From: an uncultured Chitinophagaceae bacterium
GTDB lineage: Bacteria; Bacteroidota; Bacteroidia; Chitinophagales; Chitinophagaceae
Direction of reading: 5' to 3'
Assembly (NCBI GenBank): GCA_937862815.1
Contig: CALMED010000010.1
Span: 1 to 64,000 of the forward strand
DNA length: 64,000 nt
Of the stretch, positions 5,379-11,661 are shown one piece after another (the first letter of the stretch is position 1; each line of letters opens with the position of its first letter). Below the pieces are notes generated by a model. That model had not been told where the DNA came from. It was given only the letters and a program-made list of their open reading frames with translations, and did not search any database. The position numbers and the translations under genes are program-made.

Positions 5379-6578
5379 ATGCGACTCAAACAATTGCTGC
5401 TTCCTCTGCTACTCGTACAACAGGGAACCTTTCTCCTTGCACAGAAAAATTCTTTCTATGCCATCGGAGCTCCCAATGAACAGATGCAATGGTTGCAGGT
5501 GGAGGCCTTTGGTAAGGGTGCAGCAGAACGGCAGGTTATTTACAATCACCTCACTCAACCCGGCATTTTTCCACTGGTTGAGCGGGCAAACCCGCCGGCC
5601 GGACTGCCGCTGGGGCCTTCGTCTCACCTGATGGCCGCACTGGGGTACAGCGCCGGCACCCGCCAGTTGTTTTTCATGCCGATCTTTCAGCCGGAACTGC
5701 GCTGGGTGGACCTGGGGAACCCCGGCCAACCCCGCTTTCACCGCCTGCCACTAGCCGTTATGCAAATGCCCGACCCGGCCGATCCGGGCCAGCACATCAC
5801 CCGCATGACCATCGGCGCCAACCAGATGGGCTACGCCCTCTCCAACGATGCCCGTCATTTCTATGCATTCACAACCGGTGCACAGCCGCAGCTCACCGAA
5901 CTGGGTCCGCTCCGCGATGCGCCCGGCAACGGCGGTAACAGCCTGTTCAATGCCTGCACCAGCTGGGGCGGCGACCTGGTGGCCACCACCGATGGCGACC
6001 TGCTCCTCTTTACCCAACGCAATTATGTGTACCGCATCGACCCGTCCACCCGCCTTGCCACCTGGTTGGGGCAGGTACAGGGACTGCCGGTCAACTTCAC
6101 CTCCAATGGTGCCGCCGCCGATGAAAACGGCCAGGTGCTGCTGGCCTGCTCGGTGGGGAATCATACCCTCTACCGCGTGAACCCGCTGACCCTGCAGGCC
6201 GAAGCACTGCCGGGGGAGGAGTTGTACAACTACTCCGACATGGCGAGCAGCTACCTCGCACAAGGGAAAAACCGTTCATTTGTTCCTGCCGCGCCGCAGG
6301 TAAGCCTGGAAGCAACCACCAGCATCCGGTCGTATCCCAACCCCGTTATCAACAACCGGCTGCTGGTACGATTTGACCCGGGAATGGCCGGACGCTATCA
6401 CCTGCAGGTGTTGGATGTAAACGGTCGTATCCTCTCGCAACAGGTGCTGCAACTTTCCGGCAGCGGACTGGTGACCGAGTTGCCGTTTGACCCGGCCTGG
6501 TCGCGGGGTACCTACCTGCTGCAGGTTACCGGCGAATCCGGTGGTCGTCCCTACATGCAGAAGATTGTTCTGCAGTAA
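5379..6578 (+). CDS. Secreted protein with C-terminal type IX secretion sorting domain
   Basis: The 399-residue protein starts with a signal peptide (MRLKQLLLPLLLVQQGTFLLAQ, written here only as a family trait of Lys/Arg then Leu-rich core, cut after about 22). The middle (about 25-300) looks like a repeat-built beta-propeller of the ligand-sensor type. Gly-Asn and Asp-Gly turns recur, for example TTDGDLLLFTQ and DENGQVLLACS. I could not assign a function to it. Residues about 315-399 form a Por secretion sorting domain, with SYPNPV at its start, LQVLDVNGRIL, and a final GTYLLQVTG plus basic KIVLQ end. Such proteins cross the outer membrane through the T9SS and are attached or released. The next gene is the thr leader, so this is probably a single-gene unit. 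Confidence 0.8.
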   Translation: MRLKQLLLPLLLVQQGTFLLAQKNSFYAIGAPNEQMQWLQVEAFGKGAAERQVIYNHLTQPGIFPLVERANPPAGLPLGPSSHLMAALGYSAGTRQLFFMPIFQPELRWVDLGNPGQPRFHRLPLAVMQMPDPADPGQHITRMTIGANQMGYALSNDARHFYAFTTGAQPQLTELGPLRDAPGNGGNSLFNACTSWGGDLVATTDGDLLLFTQRNYVYRIDPSTRLATWLGQVQGLPVNFTSNGAAADENGQVLLACSVGNHTLYRVNPLTLQAEALPGEELYNYSDMASSYLAQGKNRSFVPAAPQVSLEATTSIRSYPNPVINNRLLVRFDPGMAGRYHLQVLDVNGRILSQQVLQLSGSGLVTELPFDPAWSRGTYLLQVTGESGGRPYMQKIVLQ

Positions 6579-6637
6579 CGGGCCGGGGCAGCAACCTGCG
6601 TACATCAACTTCTTTTTTTGCAGCTAACACTTGTTGT

Positions 6638-6748
6638 ATGCCCAAGGCCGCCTATCTTGTGGCCATCATGAACATGATGGCACACCCTTTTTCTCCTGCT
6701 CCACTGCGTACCACCGGTACCACCATTACCCGTATTACAATCCGCTGA
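6638..6748 (+). CDS. Putative threonine-operon leader peptide (Thr/Ile-rich)
   Basis: This small ORF is too short for routine gene calling. It ends in RTTGTTITRITIR and then TGA (6746-6748). Six Thr and three Ile fall within the last 13 residues, the two amino acids that control thr attenuation in enterobacteria. ATG codons in frame at 6638, 6668, 6674 and 6677 allow peptides of 36, 26, 24 or 23 residues. The stop codon is the loop of a perfect 10-bp hairpin (6736-6758). thrA begins 94 bp further on. Composition, position and hairpin support a regulatory leader. Translation is not shown, and no classical U-tract terminator is visible before thrA. Confidence 0.6.
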   Translation: MPKAAYLVAIMNMMAHPFSPAPLRTTGTTITRITIR

Positions 6749-6758
6749 GCGGATTGTA
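6736..6758 (+). promoter_or_regulatory. Perfect hairpin at the end of the thr leader ORF
   Basis: TACAATCCGC, loop TGA, GCGGATTGTA: a 10-bp perfect stem whose three-base loop is the leader stop codon. It would be melted or covered by a ribosome finishing the leader, and free to fold if translation stalls earlier or fails. It has no following T-run, so I call it an attenuator element only by context. Confidence 0.6.
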
Positions 6759-6842
6759 CATGTTCATATCAACCCCGGCCCCTTTCAGGGTGAAAACAAA
6801 GCAAACCTTTTTACACGCAAACGACCAGAACCCATTCCCACT

Positions 6843-9284
6843 ATGAACGTACTGAAATTCGGAGGCACCTCCATGGGCAGCGCCGCTGTAATGCAGCAGG
6901 TAGCCCGTATCCTTGAAGCCACCCCCCAACCGCTGGTGGTGGTGGTAAGCGCCATGAGCGGCACCACCGATCAACTGATCCAGAGCGGCGAACTGGCAGC
7001 AGCCGGTGATGAACGCTACAAAGACCTGCTGCGGGAGATCGAGCATCGCCACCTCCACGCCTGCAAAGAGCTGATCCCGGTGCAGCAGCAGAGCAGCGTG
7101 CTGAGCCTTGTAAAAAAAGCCTGCAACGAAATGGAAGATATCTGCAACGGCATCTTCCTGCTGAATGAATGTTCGCCGCGTACACGGGATAAACTCATGA
7201 GTTACGGCGAATTGCTCTCATCGCAGCTCTTTGCGGCCGCCCTCAGTCATGGCGGTCGGGAGGCCGCCTGGAAAGACGCCCGGGAGCTGATCCGCACCAA
7301 CGCCCGGGCCGGGAATGCCCAGGTCGACTTTGGCGTCACCAACCAGCAGGTACGCCAGTTTTTCGCCGGGCAAAAAGCCGCCATCACCGTCCTGCCCGGT
7401 TTCATCGGGAGTGATCTGAACGGAGTTACCACCACCCTCGGCCGCGGCGGATCGGATTACACCGCCGCCATCATCGCCGGCGCGGTGGGAGCGGAGGTGC
7501 TCGAAATCTGGACCGACGTAAGCGGCATGATGACCGCAGACCCCCGCTGGGTGCCCAACGCCCGCATCATCCCTTCCATCTCCTACCAGGAAGCAATGGA
7601 ACTGTCGCATTTCGGGGCCAAAGTGCTGTACCCGCCCACCATCCAGCCGGTGCTGGGGCAGGGCATTCCCATCCGCATCAAGAACACATTTGCCCCGGAA
7701 GACCCCGGTACGCTCATCGAACGTGCATCGGCCCGCGACAACATCATCCGCGGCATCTCCAGCATCAACGCCATCGCCCTGCTGAGCCTTGAAGGCAGCG
7801 GCATGGTGGGCATTCCCGGCATCTCTGCCCGGCTCTTTGACGCGCTGGCAGGAGCCGGGATCAACGTCATCCTCATCACACAGGGATCGTCGGAACACTC
7901 CATCTGCGTGGGCATCAACACGGCCGAAGCCGCTAAAGCCAAAGAAGCGGTGGACCATGCTTTCCAATTGGAAATTGAAACAGGCAAGGTGGACCCGCTG
8001 TACGTGGAAACCGACCTCGCCATCGTGGCGCTGGTGGGCGACAACATGAAGTTTCATACCGGTGTGAGCGGTCGCATGTTCAGCTCCCTGGGCCGCAACG
8101 GCGTAAACATCCGCGCCATTGCGCAGGGCTCCACCGAACGCAATATTTCCGCAGTGGTGGCTTCCCGCGACGTACGCAAAGCCATCAACGTGCTGCACGA
8201 AGAATTTTTCGAAACCGTAAAAAAGCAAGTGCACCTTTTCGTTACCGGCACGGGTAATGTAGGACGACGCCTGCTGGAACAACTGCGTAAACAGCTTTCC
8301 TTCCTCGAAAGCCAGTTGCGCCTGCAGGTACGGGTGGCCGGCATTGCCAACAGCCGCCACATGCTGGTGGACGAAAACGGTATTGCGCTCGACAACTGGG
8401 AAGCCCTGTTGGAACAGGCGCCGGCAGCCAGTCTCGATGACTTTGTGCAGGCGGTGGTGGAAAAGAACCTGCCCAACTCCGTATTTGCCGACATCACCGC
8501 CCACGAGGTGGTGGCACAGGTATATGAGCGACTACTGGAAAAAAGCATCGCCGTGGTGGCCTGTAATAAAATCGCGGCCTCTTCGGTTTACAGCCGCTAC
8601 AAACACCTCAAAGAGCTCTCGCGGGAGTTCAACGCACCGTTCCTCTTTGAAACCAACGTGGGAGCCGGACTGCCCGTTATTGGCACCCTCAACGACCTGC
8701 TGCGCAGCGGCGACCGGGTGCAGAAGATGGAAGCCGTGCTCAGCGGCACCCTCAACTTCGTATTCAATCACTACGATGGCAGCCGCAGTTTCGCCGATGT
8801 GGTGCGGCAGGCACAGGAGGAAGGCTATACCGAACCCGATCCGCGCCTCGACCTCAGCGGTACCGACGTGATGCGTAAGATCATGATCCTGGCCCGCGAA
8901 GCAGGCGTTCCGCTGGAAATGGATGAAATTGTGTGCAACGGCTTTCTGCCGGAGAGTTGTTTTAAGGGCAGCGTGGACGATTTCTACCGGCAGATGGCCG
9001 CGGAAGAAAGTCATTTCCAGGGGCTGCTGAAGGAAGCGCAGGGCGCTGGCTGCAAACTCAAATTCGTGGCCCGCTTTGAACACAACGAAAGGGGCGTGCA
9101 TGCATCCGTTGGGCTGCAGCACATTGCCCCTCACAGCGATTTTTATCACCTTTATGGCAAAGACAACCTGGTGCTGTTTTATACCGACCGGTATGCAGAA
9201 CAGCCGCTCGTGATCAAAGGAGCGGGCGCCGGCGCAGAAGTAACCGCCAGCGGCGTGTTTGCCGATATCCTGCGGGCCGTATGA
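6843..9284 (+). CDS. thrA: Bifunctional aspartokinase / homoserine dehydrogenase
   Basis: This 813-residue fusion catalyses the first and third steps from aspartate to threonine. The kinase half begins with KFGGTS at residues 5-10 and contains the TTLGRGGSDYTAA substrate motif. Two ACT domains (about 310-460) include GVSGRMFSSLGRNGVNIRAI and are the usual site of threonine feedback. The homoserine dehydrogenase half starts at about 463 with the NAD(P) motif GTGNVGRR and carries EPDPRLDLSGTDVMRK near 665. The length equals that of E. coli ThrA. It is the first gene of thrA-thrB-thrC, behind a Thr/Ile-rich leader ORF that suggests control by translation-coupled attenuation. thrB follows after 16 bp. 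Confidence 0.97.
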   Translation: MNVLKFGGTSMGSAAVMQQVARILEATPQPLVVVVSAMSGTTDQLIQSGELAAAGDERYKDLLREIEHRHLHACKELIPVQQQSSVLSLVKKACNEMEDICNGIFLLNECSPRTRDKLMSYGELLSSQLFAAALSHGGREAAWKDARELIRTNARAGNAQVDFGVTNQQVRQFFAGQKAAITVLPGFIGSDLNGVTTTLGRGGSDYTAAIIAGAVGAEVLEIWTDVSGMMTADPRWVPNARIIPSISYQEAMELSHFGAKVLYPPTIQPVLGQGIPIRIKNTFAPEDPGTLIERASARDNIIRGISSINAIALLSLEGSGMVGIPGISARLFDALAGAGINVILITQGSSEHSICVGINTAEAAKAKEAVDHAFQLEIETGKVDPLYVETDLAIVALVGDNMKFHTGVSGRMFSSLGRNGVNIRAIAQGSTERNISAVVASRDVRKAINVLHEEFFETVKKQVHLFVTGTGNVGRRLLEQLRKQLSFLESQLRLQVRVAGIANSRHMLVDENGIALDNWEALLEQAPAASLDDFVQAVVEKNLPNSVFADITAHEVVAQVYERLLEKSIAVVACNKIAASSVYSRYKHLKELSREFNAPFLFETNVGAGLPVIGTLNDLLRSGDRVQKMEAVLSGTLNFVFNHYDGSRSFADVVRQAQEEGYTEPDPRLDLSGTDVMRKIMILAREAGVPLEMDEIVCNGFLPESCFKGSVDDFYRQMAAEESHFQGLLKEAQGAGCKLKFVARFEHNERGVHASVGLQHIAPHSDFYHLYGKDNLVLFYTDRYAEQPLVIKGAGAGAEVTASGVFADILRAV

Positions 9285-9300
9285 TCACCCGGTAAAAACC

Positions 9301-10281
9301 ATGAACACAATGAACCATCCGCTGCATCCTTCAACCAATGCCCCCCAACCTGCCACACCCGGTTGGGTGGAAGTGCACAGCCCGGCCACGGTGGCCAACC
9401 TGGTGTGCGGCTTCGACATACTGGGCCTGGCGCTGGAACAACCGTACGACCGCATGCGCCTGCAGCTGCTCGACGAGCCGGTGGTGCGCATCAGGCACCA
9501 CGATGCTCACGGACTGCCCACCGACCCGCTGCAGAACGTGGCGGGTGTGGTATTGCTGGAGATTATGCGGCAGACGGGCAACGCCTTTGGCTTTTCGTTG
9601 GAAGTGGAAAAACACATCAAACCCGGCAGCGGCCTCGGCTCCAGCGCAGCCAGCGCGGCCGGCGCGGCCATAGCGGCCCACCACCTGTTGCAGCAGCGGT
9701 TCAGCCTCCGCGAGCTGGTGCAATTTGCGATGATCGGCGAAAAACTGGCAACCGGGGTGAAGCACGCCGACAACATCACCCCCTGCATCCTTGGCGGCAT
9801 CACCCTCATCCGCTCCATCCACCCGCTCGACATCGTGCAGCTGAACGCGCCCAACCTGCATGCCGCCGTCGTGCATCCGCAGATCGAAGTGAAGACCAGC
9901 GATGCCCGGCAGATCCTGCGCAAGGAAGTGCTGCTGAAAGATGCCATCCGGCAATGGGGCAATATCGCGGGACTGGTGGCCGGCTTTGAAAAAGGCGATT
10001 ACGACCTCATCGGCCGCAGCCTGGAAGATGTGATCATTGAACCCGTTCGCAGCATCCTCATTCCCGGCTTCGACGAGGTGAAAACCAAAAGCCGGGAAGC
10101 GGGCGCACTGGGCGGAGGTATTTCCGGCAGCGGGCCTTCCATTTTCATGCTTTGCCGGGAGCAGGCAACGGCCCAAACGGTGGCAGGCATCATGGAAGAG
10201 GTGTACCACCGCCTGGGCATTGATGCTAAAGTCTATGTAACAACCGTAAAGAAAACCGGGGTGGAGGTACAATCCGCGTGA
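9301..10281 (+). CDS. thrB: Homoserine kinase
   Basis: ThrB phosphorylates homoserine. The 326-residue protein is a GHMP kinase: SPATVANLVCGFDILGLAL near the N-terminus is the family's substrate region, PGSGLGSSAASAAGAA at about 106-121 is the ATP loop, and GGISGSGPSIFML near the end is motif 3. I chose the ATG at 9301 (another follows at 9310). An upstream in-frame ATG at 9259 would overlap thrA by 26 bp and add a tail with no family resemblance. The spacing from thrA and the same-strand thrC 51 bp later indicate one operon. Confidence 0.95.
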   Translation: MNTMNHPLHPSTNAPQPATPGWVEVHSPATVANLVCGFDILGLALEQPYDRMRLQLLDEPVVRIRHHDAHGLPTDPLQNVAGVVLLEIMRQTGNAFGFSLEVEKHIKPGSGLGSSAASAAGAAIAAHHLLQQRFSLRELVQFAMIGEKLATGVKHADNITPCILGGITLIRSIHPLDIVQLNAPNLHAAVVHPQIEVKTSDARQILRKEVLLKDAIRQWGNIAGLVAGFEKGDYDLIGRSLEDVIIEPVRSILIPGFDEVKTKSREAGALGGGISGSGPSIFMLCREQATAQTVAGIMEEVYHRLGIDAKVYVTTVKKTGVEVQSA

Positions 10282-10332: not shown

Positions 10333-11661
10333 GTGAAGTACTATAGTCTGAACCAGCAATCACCCCGGGTGGGGTTCCGGGAAGCCACCCTCCGGGGGCA
10401 GGCGCCCGATAAAGGCCTTTATTTTCCGGAAACCATCCCGCAGGTGGATAAGAGCCTGCTGGAGAACATCGAATCCTGCAGCGAAGAAGAAATTGCGTTC
10501 CGCGTCATTCGTCCCTACGTGGCGGGGGAGATACCCGATGCTGCACTGCAGCGTATCGTTGGCGAAACCGTTAACTTTCCCGTACCCCTCGTAGCGGTAA
10601 CCGGCGATATTTTCTCCCTCGAACTGTATCACGGTCCCACGCTCGCCTTCAAAGACACCGGCGCCCGTTTCATGAGCCGCTGCCTGGGCTACTTCGTACA
10701 AAGCGGACAAGTGAGCGCCGGCACACGCAGTGGCAAAATCGTGGTGCTGGTTGCCACCAGCGGCGATACGGGTGGCGCCGTAGCCAACGGATTTTACGGC
10801 GTGGAAGGCGTGGAGGTGGTGATCCTGTATCCCTCCGGAAAAGTGAGCAAAGTGCAGGAACAACAGCTTACCACACTGGGAAAGAATGTACATGCACTGG
10901 AAGTGGACGGCACCTTCGACGATTGCCAGCGGCTCGTAAAACAGGCATTCGCTGATGCATCGCTCCGCGAACATTGCTTTCTCACGTCCGCCAACTCCAT
11001 AAACGTGGCCCGCTGGCTGCCGCAGCAGTTCTACTATTTCTTCGCGTGGAAGCAATGGCGGCAATCGGGAAGAGGAGAGACCCCGCCCATTTACTGCGTA
11101 CCCAGTGGTAATTTCGGCAATATCTGTGCCGGCATCCTGGCTCACCTGGGCGGACTCCCGGCATCGCATTTCATTGCGGCCTGTAACGCCAACGATGTGG
11201 TACCCCGCTTTTTGCAGACAGAGCAGTATGAACCCCGACCGGCCGTGGCTACCCTCTCCAACGCAATGGACGTGGGTGATCCCAGTAACTTCATCCGGAT
11301 CCTGGAATTGTTTCAGCACCGCTTTCCCGCACTGAGCCAACTGCTTTCAGCTGTAAGTGTGACCGATGCGGTGACCACCGAAACCCTGTTGCAGGTATAC
11401 CGGCAGCACCACTACCTCCCGGATCCGCACGGAGCCGTGGGCTTCCGGGCGCTGGAAGATTACCTGCTGGCACATCCCGGGCAGCAAGGCATTGTACTGG
11501 AAACCGCCCACCCAGTGAAATTTTATGATGTGGTGGAACCTGTCACCGGCAACCCGATACCCCTGCCGCCGGCTGTTGCGGCTATCATGAACCTGCCGAA
11601 GCAGGCCAGGTCCCTGGCAGCTAACTACGACGAACTGCAGGATTTTCTTAAAAAAATCTGA
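10333..11661 (+). CDS. thrC: Threonine synthase
   Basis: ThrC turns O-phosphohomoserine into threonine with PLP. The 442-residue protein starts at a GTG, giving MKYYSLNQ, the usual N-terminus of this family in Bacteroidota; no ATG gives a better start. HGPTLAFKDTGARF carries the PLP lysine (Lys107), VATSGDTGGAVANGF is the phosphate-binding loop, and SGNFGNICAG is also conserved. It closes the thr operon. The 44 bp after it lead directly to an unrelated gene, without a recognisable terminator. Confidence 0.95.
   Translation: MKYYSLNQQSPRVGFREATLRGQAPDKGLYFPETIPQVDKSLLENIESCSEEEIAFRVIRPYVAGEIPDAALQRIVGETVNFPVPLVAVTGDIFSLELYHGPTLAFKDTGARFMSRCLGYFVQSGQVSAGTRSGKIVVLVATSGDTGGAVANGFYGVEGVEVVILYPSGKVSKVQEQQLTTLGKNVHALEVDGTFDDCQRLVKQAFADASLREHCFLTSANSINVARWLPQQFYYFFAWKQWRQSGRGETPPIYCVPSGNFGNICAGILAHLGGLPASHFIAACNANDVVPRFLQTEQYEPRPAVATLSNAMDVGDPSNFIRILELFQHRFPALSQLLSAVSVTDAVTTETLLQVYRQHHYLPDPHGAVGFRALEDYLLAHPGQQGIVLETAHPVKFYDVVEPVTGNPIPLPPAVAAIMNLPKQARSLAANYDELQDFLKKI

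Follow-up and report, generated by a model that had tools for sequence, protein, structure and literature searches.

The window analysed here (64,000 nucleotides of contig CALMED010000010.1 from an uncultured Chitinophagaceae bacterium) carries the threonine biosynthesis genes thrA, thrB, and thrC, which are preceded on the plus strand by a short leader open reading frame (ORF) (Table 1). The leader ends in RTTGTTITRITIR followed by the stop codon TGA at 6746 to 6748, its last 13 residues comprise six Thr and three Ile residues, and 94 nt lie between its stop codon and the ATG of thrA (6843). The stop codon forms the loop of a hairpin (designated P1), the arms of which (i.e., TACAATCCGC, 6736 to 6745, and GCGGATTGTA, 6749 to 6758) pair perfectly over 10 bp. 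A sequence-only reading had called attention to the Thr/Ile-rich leader end, to the perfect 10-bp hairpin whose loop is the stop codon, and to the order thrA-thrB-thrC 94 bp behind the leader. The first two can be read directly in the sequence, and the gene order was confirmed by NCBIfam matches. The gene upstream of the leader lies on the same strand and encodes a protein with a T9SS sorting tail. The region from 6638 to 6842 is more stably folded than its shuffles (z = -2.94). An identical ThrA is encoded on two contigs of this genome, G000 (i.e., C10 and C19; 73,883 and 73,836 bases); since the assembly is flagged as 8.5% contaminated, this looks like a duplicated contig.

Table 1. Features of the thr leader region and of the operon in the window
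Feature	Position	Strand	Basis
Promoter (inferred): CTTG (6630-6633), 19 nt, TATCTTGT (6653-6660)	6630..6660	+	Position kept in the genus
Leader ORF, 26 codons, MNMMAHPFSPAPLRTTGTTITRITIR + TGA (probable start)	6668..6748	+	Sequence read, relatives compared
Thr/Ile codon run closing the leader (6 Thr and 3 Ile in 13)	6707..6745	+	
P1 hairpin, 10 bp, stop codon as loop	6736..6758	+	
M2 element (CATAT), located 14 nt behind the GGA in the 3' arm of P1	6765..6769	+	
P2 small hairpin; lowest-energy form ACCC (6772-6775) with GGGT (6788-6791)	6772..6791	+	
P3 candidate weak terminator-like hairpin: GGGT (6788-6791) with ACCT (6805-6808), then TTTT	6788..6812	+	
thrA, bifunctional aspartate kinase/homoserine dehydrogenase I	6843..9284	+	NCBIfam NF006959
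thrB, homoserine kinase (start inferred)	9301..10281	+	TIGR00191
thrC, threonine synthase (start per ORF list)	10333..11661	+	TIGR00260

The earlier reading had begun the ORF at position 6638, which is probably wrong. The ATG at 6638 lies within a conserved promoter-like stretch, so the true leader start is probably the ATG at 6668. On this comparison of sequences, 6668 is the most likely start codon, with a 5' untranslated region of almost nil length and an inferred transcript start near 6666. The pattern CTTG-19 nt-TA[TA]CTT, which we read after the promoter consensus of the Bacteroidota, occurs at the same place in all 12 leader-bearing loci of the genus that were scanned (the window included; L084 and L088 are the same), and the leader start codon follows it by 6 to 8 nt. 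Within the window, the pattern alone has one match against 1.9 expected (i.e., it is no rarer than chance), so the evidence for the promoter is its conserved place. The promoter scan was less certain in other genera, where for several loci it returned either GTG or TTG alone as start codon or none at all. In the leader-less locus L082, a similar promoter can be seen by eye directly before thrA.

We compared 106 distinct regions upstream of thrA, which remained from 80 loci of one scan and 30 of a second search after the removal of identical regions. With a leader defined by at least seven Thr or Ile residues among the last 16 and by a stop codon 50 to 160 nt upstream of thrA, a Thr/Ile-rich ORF was present in 95 of the 106 regions (the window counted), and its stop codon lay 64 to 148 nt from thrA. 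All 95 leaders pass the 7-of-16 threshold, and 1.35% of 4,000 random anchors in the same loci yielded such an ORF. Codon statistics were computed for 91 sequences (i.e., four loci with displaced stop codons were omitted). Codons -9 to -2 before the stop encode Thr or Ile in 80 to 97% of these sequences, and the two residues exchange freely along the run. Position 1 of the codons is nearly fixed to A and position 2 is mainly C or T, while position 3 varies (1.2 to 1.8 bits at codons -9 to -3; only 0.09 bits at codon -2, which lies inside P1). Judged from this pattern, in which the first two positions keep Thr/Ile and the third drifts, the reading frame of the leader is under selection. An alignment of relatives had been proposed in the sequence-only reading; in it, the frame, the Thr/Ile codons, and the hairpin are retained while the remainder drifts.

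No leader was found in 11 of the 106 regions (L006, L071, L082, L100, L107, L038, L051, L105, L108, L109, and L110); the contig of L006 extends just 107 nt upstream of thrA. L082 belongs to the same genus as the window, L100 and L107 to the family f1, and L105, L108, L109, and L110 to other families of the order, while L051 and L038 are labelled Chitinophagaceae and Chitinophagales, respectively. Since close relatives possess thrA without a leader (L082/L001, L100, L107, L051, and L038), the leader is dispensable. L082 and L001 lie on one contig of a same-genus relative with a 2.4-Mb genome (G005), in which the loss of the thr leader amounts to a natural attenuator deletion.

At least 5 bp can form around the stop codon in 93 of the 95 loci and at least 6 bp in 87, compared with at least 6 bp in 203 of 1,626 control places; these counts include misplaced hairpins at L048 (in the 93) and L066 (in both), which with L072 and L104 are the four loci where the true hairpin lies just before the stop codon and the automatically placed one is not P1. 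The P1 loop measures 3 to 5 nt in nearly all loci, with no single length. In an alignment of 86 model matches, which was fitted to the model and is hence biased towards structure, 28 cells of P1 had changed on both sides, versus 8.5 in shuffles (0 of 500 reach 28), and sliding the partner along gave at most seven such cells. All shuffles were likewise exceeded by the covariation score and by the proportion of paired cells. Two of the five measures did not beat the shuffles, i.e., the pairs with both sides changed (3 versus 1.8; reached by 91 of 500 shuffles) and the further pair types (6 versus 6.6; reached by 490 of 500). A comparison of cognate with non-cognate (other species) arms, which is independent of the model-fitted alignment, gave t values of -10.4 and -11.4. 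On the strength of these sequence comparisons, P1 covaries across relatives. Among M2, P2, and later regions, none proved to be an alternative partner of the P1 3' arm (t = -0.6 to +4.8). An RNAalifold consensus computed on alignment A1 contained three pairs only, which we believe is because the loop length of P1 varies; it was replaced by a named structure, the covariance model R1, and pair counts.

Downstream of P1, a CATAT-like element (M2) scores in 95 of 95 loci with an invariant ATA, the best match in L067 being oddly placed. Counted from GG[GA] in the 3' arm of P1, CATAT follows at a spacing of 14 in 78 of the 95 loci and of 12 to 15 in 94, while its distance from the stop codon lies between 3 and 17, apart from an outlier of 30; the four displaced-stop loci retain the P1-M2 spacing. 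Since the P1-M2 spacing is nearly fixed and the distance from the stop codon varies, M2 is positioned with respect to the hairpin and not to the stop codon. The evidence for M2 is this spacing rather than a chance expectation for CATAT. A second CATAT near the leader start (M1) occurs in 81 of the 95 loci against 33.5 expected by chance; M1 is real as a group and weak in single loci, and it is out of its usual frame in 15 of the 81. Its position is approximately 16 nt past the start codon of the leader, and GGTAC- or GTTGTAC-like letters often precede it (e.g., L018, L056, and L087). The leader-start region and the P1-M2 region of the family leaders resemble direct repeats that flank the Thr codons.

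The covariance model R1 was built from 74 of 89 prepared sequences, with the four displaced-stop loci kept out, on alignment A2, in which MAFFT had shifted P1 by one column in some rows. Checked over 99 sources, R1 found 86 of the 90 leader-bearing and 0 of the 9 leader-less ones; it missed L022, L052, L048, and L104 and found the displaced-stop loci L066 and L072. The genome of the window has one strong site (8.6e-13, on the two contigs C10 and C19), and the next best match is at 0.46. Matches at an E value of 0.1 were present in 33 of 59 relatives, and strong matches (6e-5 or better) in 26 genomes, all of them among the 36 of f1 and none among the 23 from other families. Of 294 family genomes, 166 have a match at an E value of 0.001 and 128 have none at that threshold. 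We tested 57 of 67 model-fetched loci by tblastn (ten weak own-genome matches, L113 to L122, were left out). thrA lies downstream in 53 of them (52 within 80 nt; L144 at approximately 216 nt), and the remaining four are weak matches with E values of 0.004 or worse. A strict ThrA N-terminal motif had missed many true neighbours in this check and was replaced by tblastn. Among ten weak R1 matches that were read individually, nine look like chance or coding sequence and one (L158) is the thrA leader of G019. As far as these searches reach, the strong element is found only upstream of thrA.

From 247 genomes of the phylum, 60 regions upstream of thrA were obtained, and 25 with a Thr/Ile-rich ORF were carried forward; L193 and two f1 loci outside these 25 contain such an ORF too. 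The Thr/Ile leader thus occurs in seven further families (f22, f23, f24, f27, f28, f30, and f42), and no Thr/Ile-rich ORF was found at a comparable distance in the regions fetched from f32, f33, f35, and f36. P1 and M2 are common to f23, f42, and most f24 loci. In 15 of the 25 other-family loci, P1 is accompanied by a CATAT 14 to 16 nt from the start of its 3' arm (14 by script, and L210 by eye, where the script had taken a nearer chance CATAT). The f27 loci have P1, with the arms inverted from CCC/GGG to GGG/CCC in two of three. In four f24 loci (L190, L191, L192, and L197), the small GGGC..GCTG hairpin between M2 and thrA is replaced by a longer one, the 5' arm of which is rich in U and the 3' arm rich in purines. 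One f28 locus (L188) can be drawn by eye as a four-segment attenuator, with a poor automatic terminator score (-4.4); the other (L189) gave no leader. Regions upstream of ilvD showed no clear common leader.

Three smaller helices are less well backed by these sequences than P1, and the t values given for them are indicative, as they come from related sequences under an 80% identity filter only, with 91 and 28 region pairs scanned. The 5' part of the leader pairs with its own Thr codon run (P0) beyond expectation (t = -4.8 to -4.4), and the excess holds against shuffles among synonymous codons (t = -3.8), where control regions gave +1.8 and -0.9; the P0 of the window itself differs from the genus type. 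Coevolution of the P2 pairing gave t = -2.2 with coarse regions and -3.6 when centred on its GG, and the P3 arms gave t = -5.0. Over 79 loci, the P3 hairpin and the U-rich tail behind it score better than dinucleotide shuffles (t = -4.3), which is not so on the reverse strand (+0.5). A 9-bp pairing of the leader start AUGAACAUG (6668 to 6676) with CAUGUUCAU (6758 to 6766) was rejected as a family feature. Its cognate tests gave t values of approximately 0 over the family, and it is therefore treated as particular to the window species, where this pairing, just after P1, would hide the leader's own start codon.

These helices bear on the first rival explanation, i.e., ordinary attenuation by an intrinsic terminator, in which P3 would be a short AT-rich terminator and P2 or another helix the antiterminator. 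The coevolving arms of P3 and its advantage over shuffles speak for it, as do the use of one GGGT arm by both P2 and P3 in the window species, the pairing between the 3' arms of P2 and P3 (t = -2.4; the sole hint of a switch), and the f22 relatives, in which a strong terminator (scores, -20 to -24) and an antiterminator strand in the leader tail can be recognized by eye. The terminator scores, however, point the other way. The thr leader of the window scores -4.3 and the His terminator of its genome -18.7, and the median is -4.2 for the 95 thr leaders versus -18 for 12 His leaders (the same genome included), which are the hisG loci with a visible His leader out of 20 found. A score of -8 or lower was reached by only 4 of the 95 thr leaders and by 12 of the 12 His leaders; the scoring would therefore have caught a strong thr terminator. 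A terminator scan gave hits in 52 of the 95 loci, where mononucleotide shuffles predict 27, yet these are mostly P1 itself. Thus, as the sequence-only reading had noted for the window, no classical U-tract terminator is seen, and the scores suggest that the thr leader of the family is mostly without a strong intrinsic terminator. We regard ordinary terminator attenuation as doubtful.

Control at the level of translation seems unlikely, whether the thrA start would be opened or closed by ribosomes that read the leader or thrA would be translated by re-initiation. In its favour, the two reading frames share an inferred transcript, with 94 nt between them, and control of starts by RNA structure does occur in the Bacteroidota. 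However, the upstream sequence of other species is a better pairing partner for the thrA start region than its own (t = +6.6 and +4.4), a test that is only indicative, since further regions nearby behave likewise (e.g., the P1 3' arm with M2, +5.2). The stop-to-start distances of 64 to 148 nt are also far above the 11- to 14-bp peak given for leader genes of the Bacteroidetes (PMC4833913). Part of the sequence-only reading is affected by this result: its view of the element as attenuator-like agrees with the retained frame, codons, and hairpin, while its suggestion that the helix might mask a site, taken as the thrA start, is disfavoured to the extent that the pairing test indicates.

An action of the peptide itself, as a small protein or through nascent-chain arrest, is very unlikely; an early His-Ile pair gives many loci some N-terminal similarity, but the M1 CATAT stands in another frame in 15 of 81 loci, so that this similarity is partly at the RNA level, and Thr and Ile interchange freely along the run. 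It is still less probable that P1, a perfect palindrome near a promoter, is a DNA operator bound by a regulator with the ORF incidental, given that its arms change together (with the inversion in two of three f27 loci), its loop has 3 to 5 nt rather than one length, codon identity is kept, and it lies approximately 70 nt inside the inferred transcript.

The element before thrA is probably a ribosome-mediated attenuator of thrABC in a terminator-poor variant. The leader looks translated and Thr/Ile-rich, with a conserved RNA structure. That it senses the charging of Thr- and Ile-tRNA through the dwell time of the ribosome follows from this conservation, and we consider this half of the reading highly probable. 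We favour the output half only somewhat; in it, transcription would, conditionally, end before thrA with no strong intrinsic terminator to stop it. Transcription would begin just before the ATG at 6668, and a ribosome would load almost at the 5' end of the RNA and read the 26-codon leader, with the supply of charged Thr- and Ile-tRNA setting its dwell time on the Thr/Ile codons. When threonine is plentiful, the ribosome would reach the stop codon inside P1, P1 would be opened and then released, and most transcripts would end between the leader and thrA. When threonine is scarce, the ribosome would stall before reaching P1, on the Thr/Ile codons, and the polymerase would continue into thrABC.

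Candidates for the output step are the loading of Rho on the C-rich and G-poor codon run when it is free of ribosomes, the weak terminator P3, and polymerase pausing at P1-M2. A rho gene was found in the genome, and the leaders contain 30% C and 13% G, versus 18% C and 24% G in early thrA (the window leader alone, 39% C and 12% G). The C-rich, G-poor composition arises from the Thr/Ile codons whatever the mechanism, and both it and the presence of rho are thus weak as evidence for Rho. A hairpin with an element at a fixed distance is the geometry needed for a hairpin-stabilized pause, and the P1-CATAT lock of approximately 14 nt holds across several families even with a moved stop codon. We tentatively suggest that P1 and CATAT, locked approximately 14 nt apart, could form a terminator-independent unit at which RNA polymerase is halted or marked, or to which a factor such as Rho is recruited; whether the leader ribosome opens or spares P1 would then decide elongation into thrABC, with no terminator/antiterminator switch.

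In Escherichia coli, the thrL leader (the enterobacterial Thr_leader of Rfam, RF00506) is likewise Thr/Ile-rich and precedes thrABC. The element of the window differs in that it is without a strong U-tract terminator, has a CATAT at a near-fixed distance, and starts nearly leaderless. RF00506 had no match between positions 5500 and 8000 of the window even at an E value of 10, and neither this region nor 18 further sources yielded an Rfam family for this leader type; among the three f22 leaders, two match Thr_leader below the threshold (38.0 and 36.5 bits; cut-off, 55). Another amino acid-rich leader before a biosynthetic gene, the His leader, lies upstream of hisG in the same genome (L250, on contig C6), and its MKQLAHHHHLSYLPG is followed by a strong terminator. 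It has an antiterminator strand and a strong T-tract terminator, whereas neither was found in the thr leader. An automatic scan found a His-rich ORF before hisG in 13 of 20 loci; that of the window genome was seen by eye only. At the Rho-dependent tnaC of E. coli, a stalled leader ribosome would likewise shield RNA where Rho could load, but tnaC differs from the thr leader in sensing free tryptophan.

A 2004 study by Vitreschak (FEMS Microbiol Lett) reportedly predicted some attenuators in the Bacteroidetes/Chlorobi. In a 2010 survey, leader-peptide systems, ermC aside, are described as known only in the Proteobacteria and Actinobacteria, to which the Firmicutes were then added (PMC2965389), and a 2013 survey of Rfam motifs suggests that amino acid attenuators may have arisen in the gamma-proteobacteria, with few transfers (PMC3766115). 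Leader-peptide elements before amino acid operons, without Rfam hits, were reported from transcriptome data of Flavobacterium psychrophilum (PMC9723704); in the passages considered here, that report names pheA and hisG among others, and not thrA, and gives neither a mechanism nor a motif. The Bacteroid-trp RNA (RF01692; PMC2864571) is also a cis-regulatory RNA of the Bacteroidetes, by its name located before trp genes, and its covariance model had no match at positions 5500 to 8000 of the window or in the 18 further sources. A literature search by titles and the openings of abstracts, mostly without subscription full texts, found no thrA leader in the Bacteroidetes. Leader attenuation as such is known; on the basis of that search, this Bacteroidota thr element appears to be a new form of it.

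These comparisons reveal a widespread threonine leader in the Bacteroidota, which is without an Rfam family and has an RNA architecture of its own, beside a textbook His leader in one and the same cell. The thr/His pairing offers a clean test of the control of elongation by a leader ribosome without a strong terminator, in a phylum with poorly known translation and termination signals. On the evidence of conserved sequence, the thr leader is very likely a sensor that raises thrABC when threonine is low and that is built unlike the textbook version.
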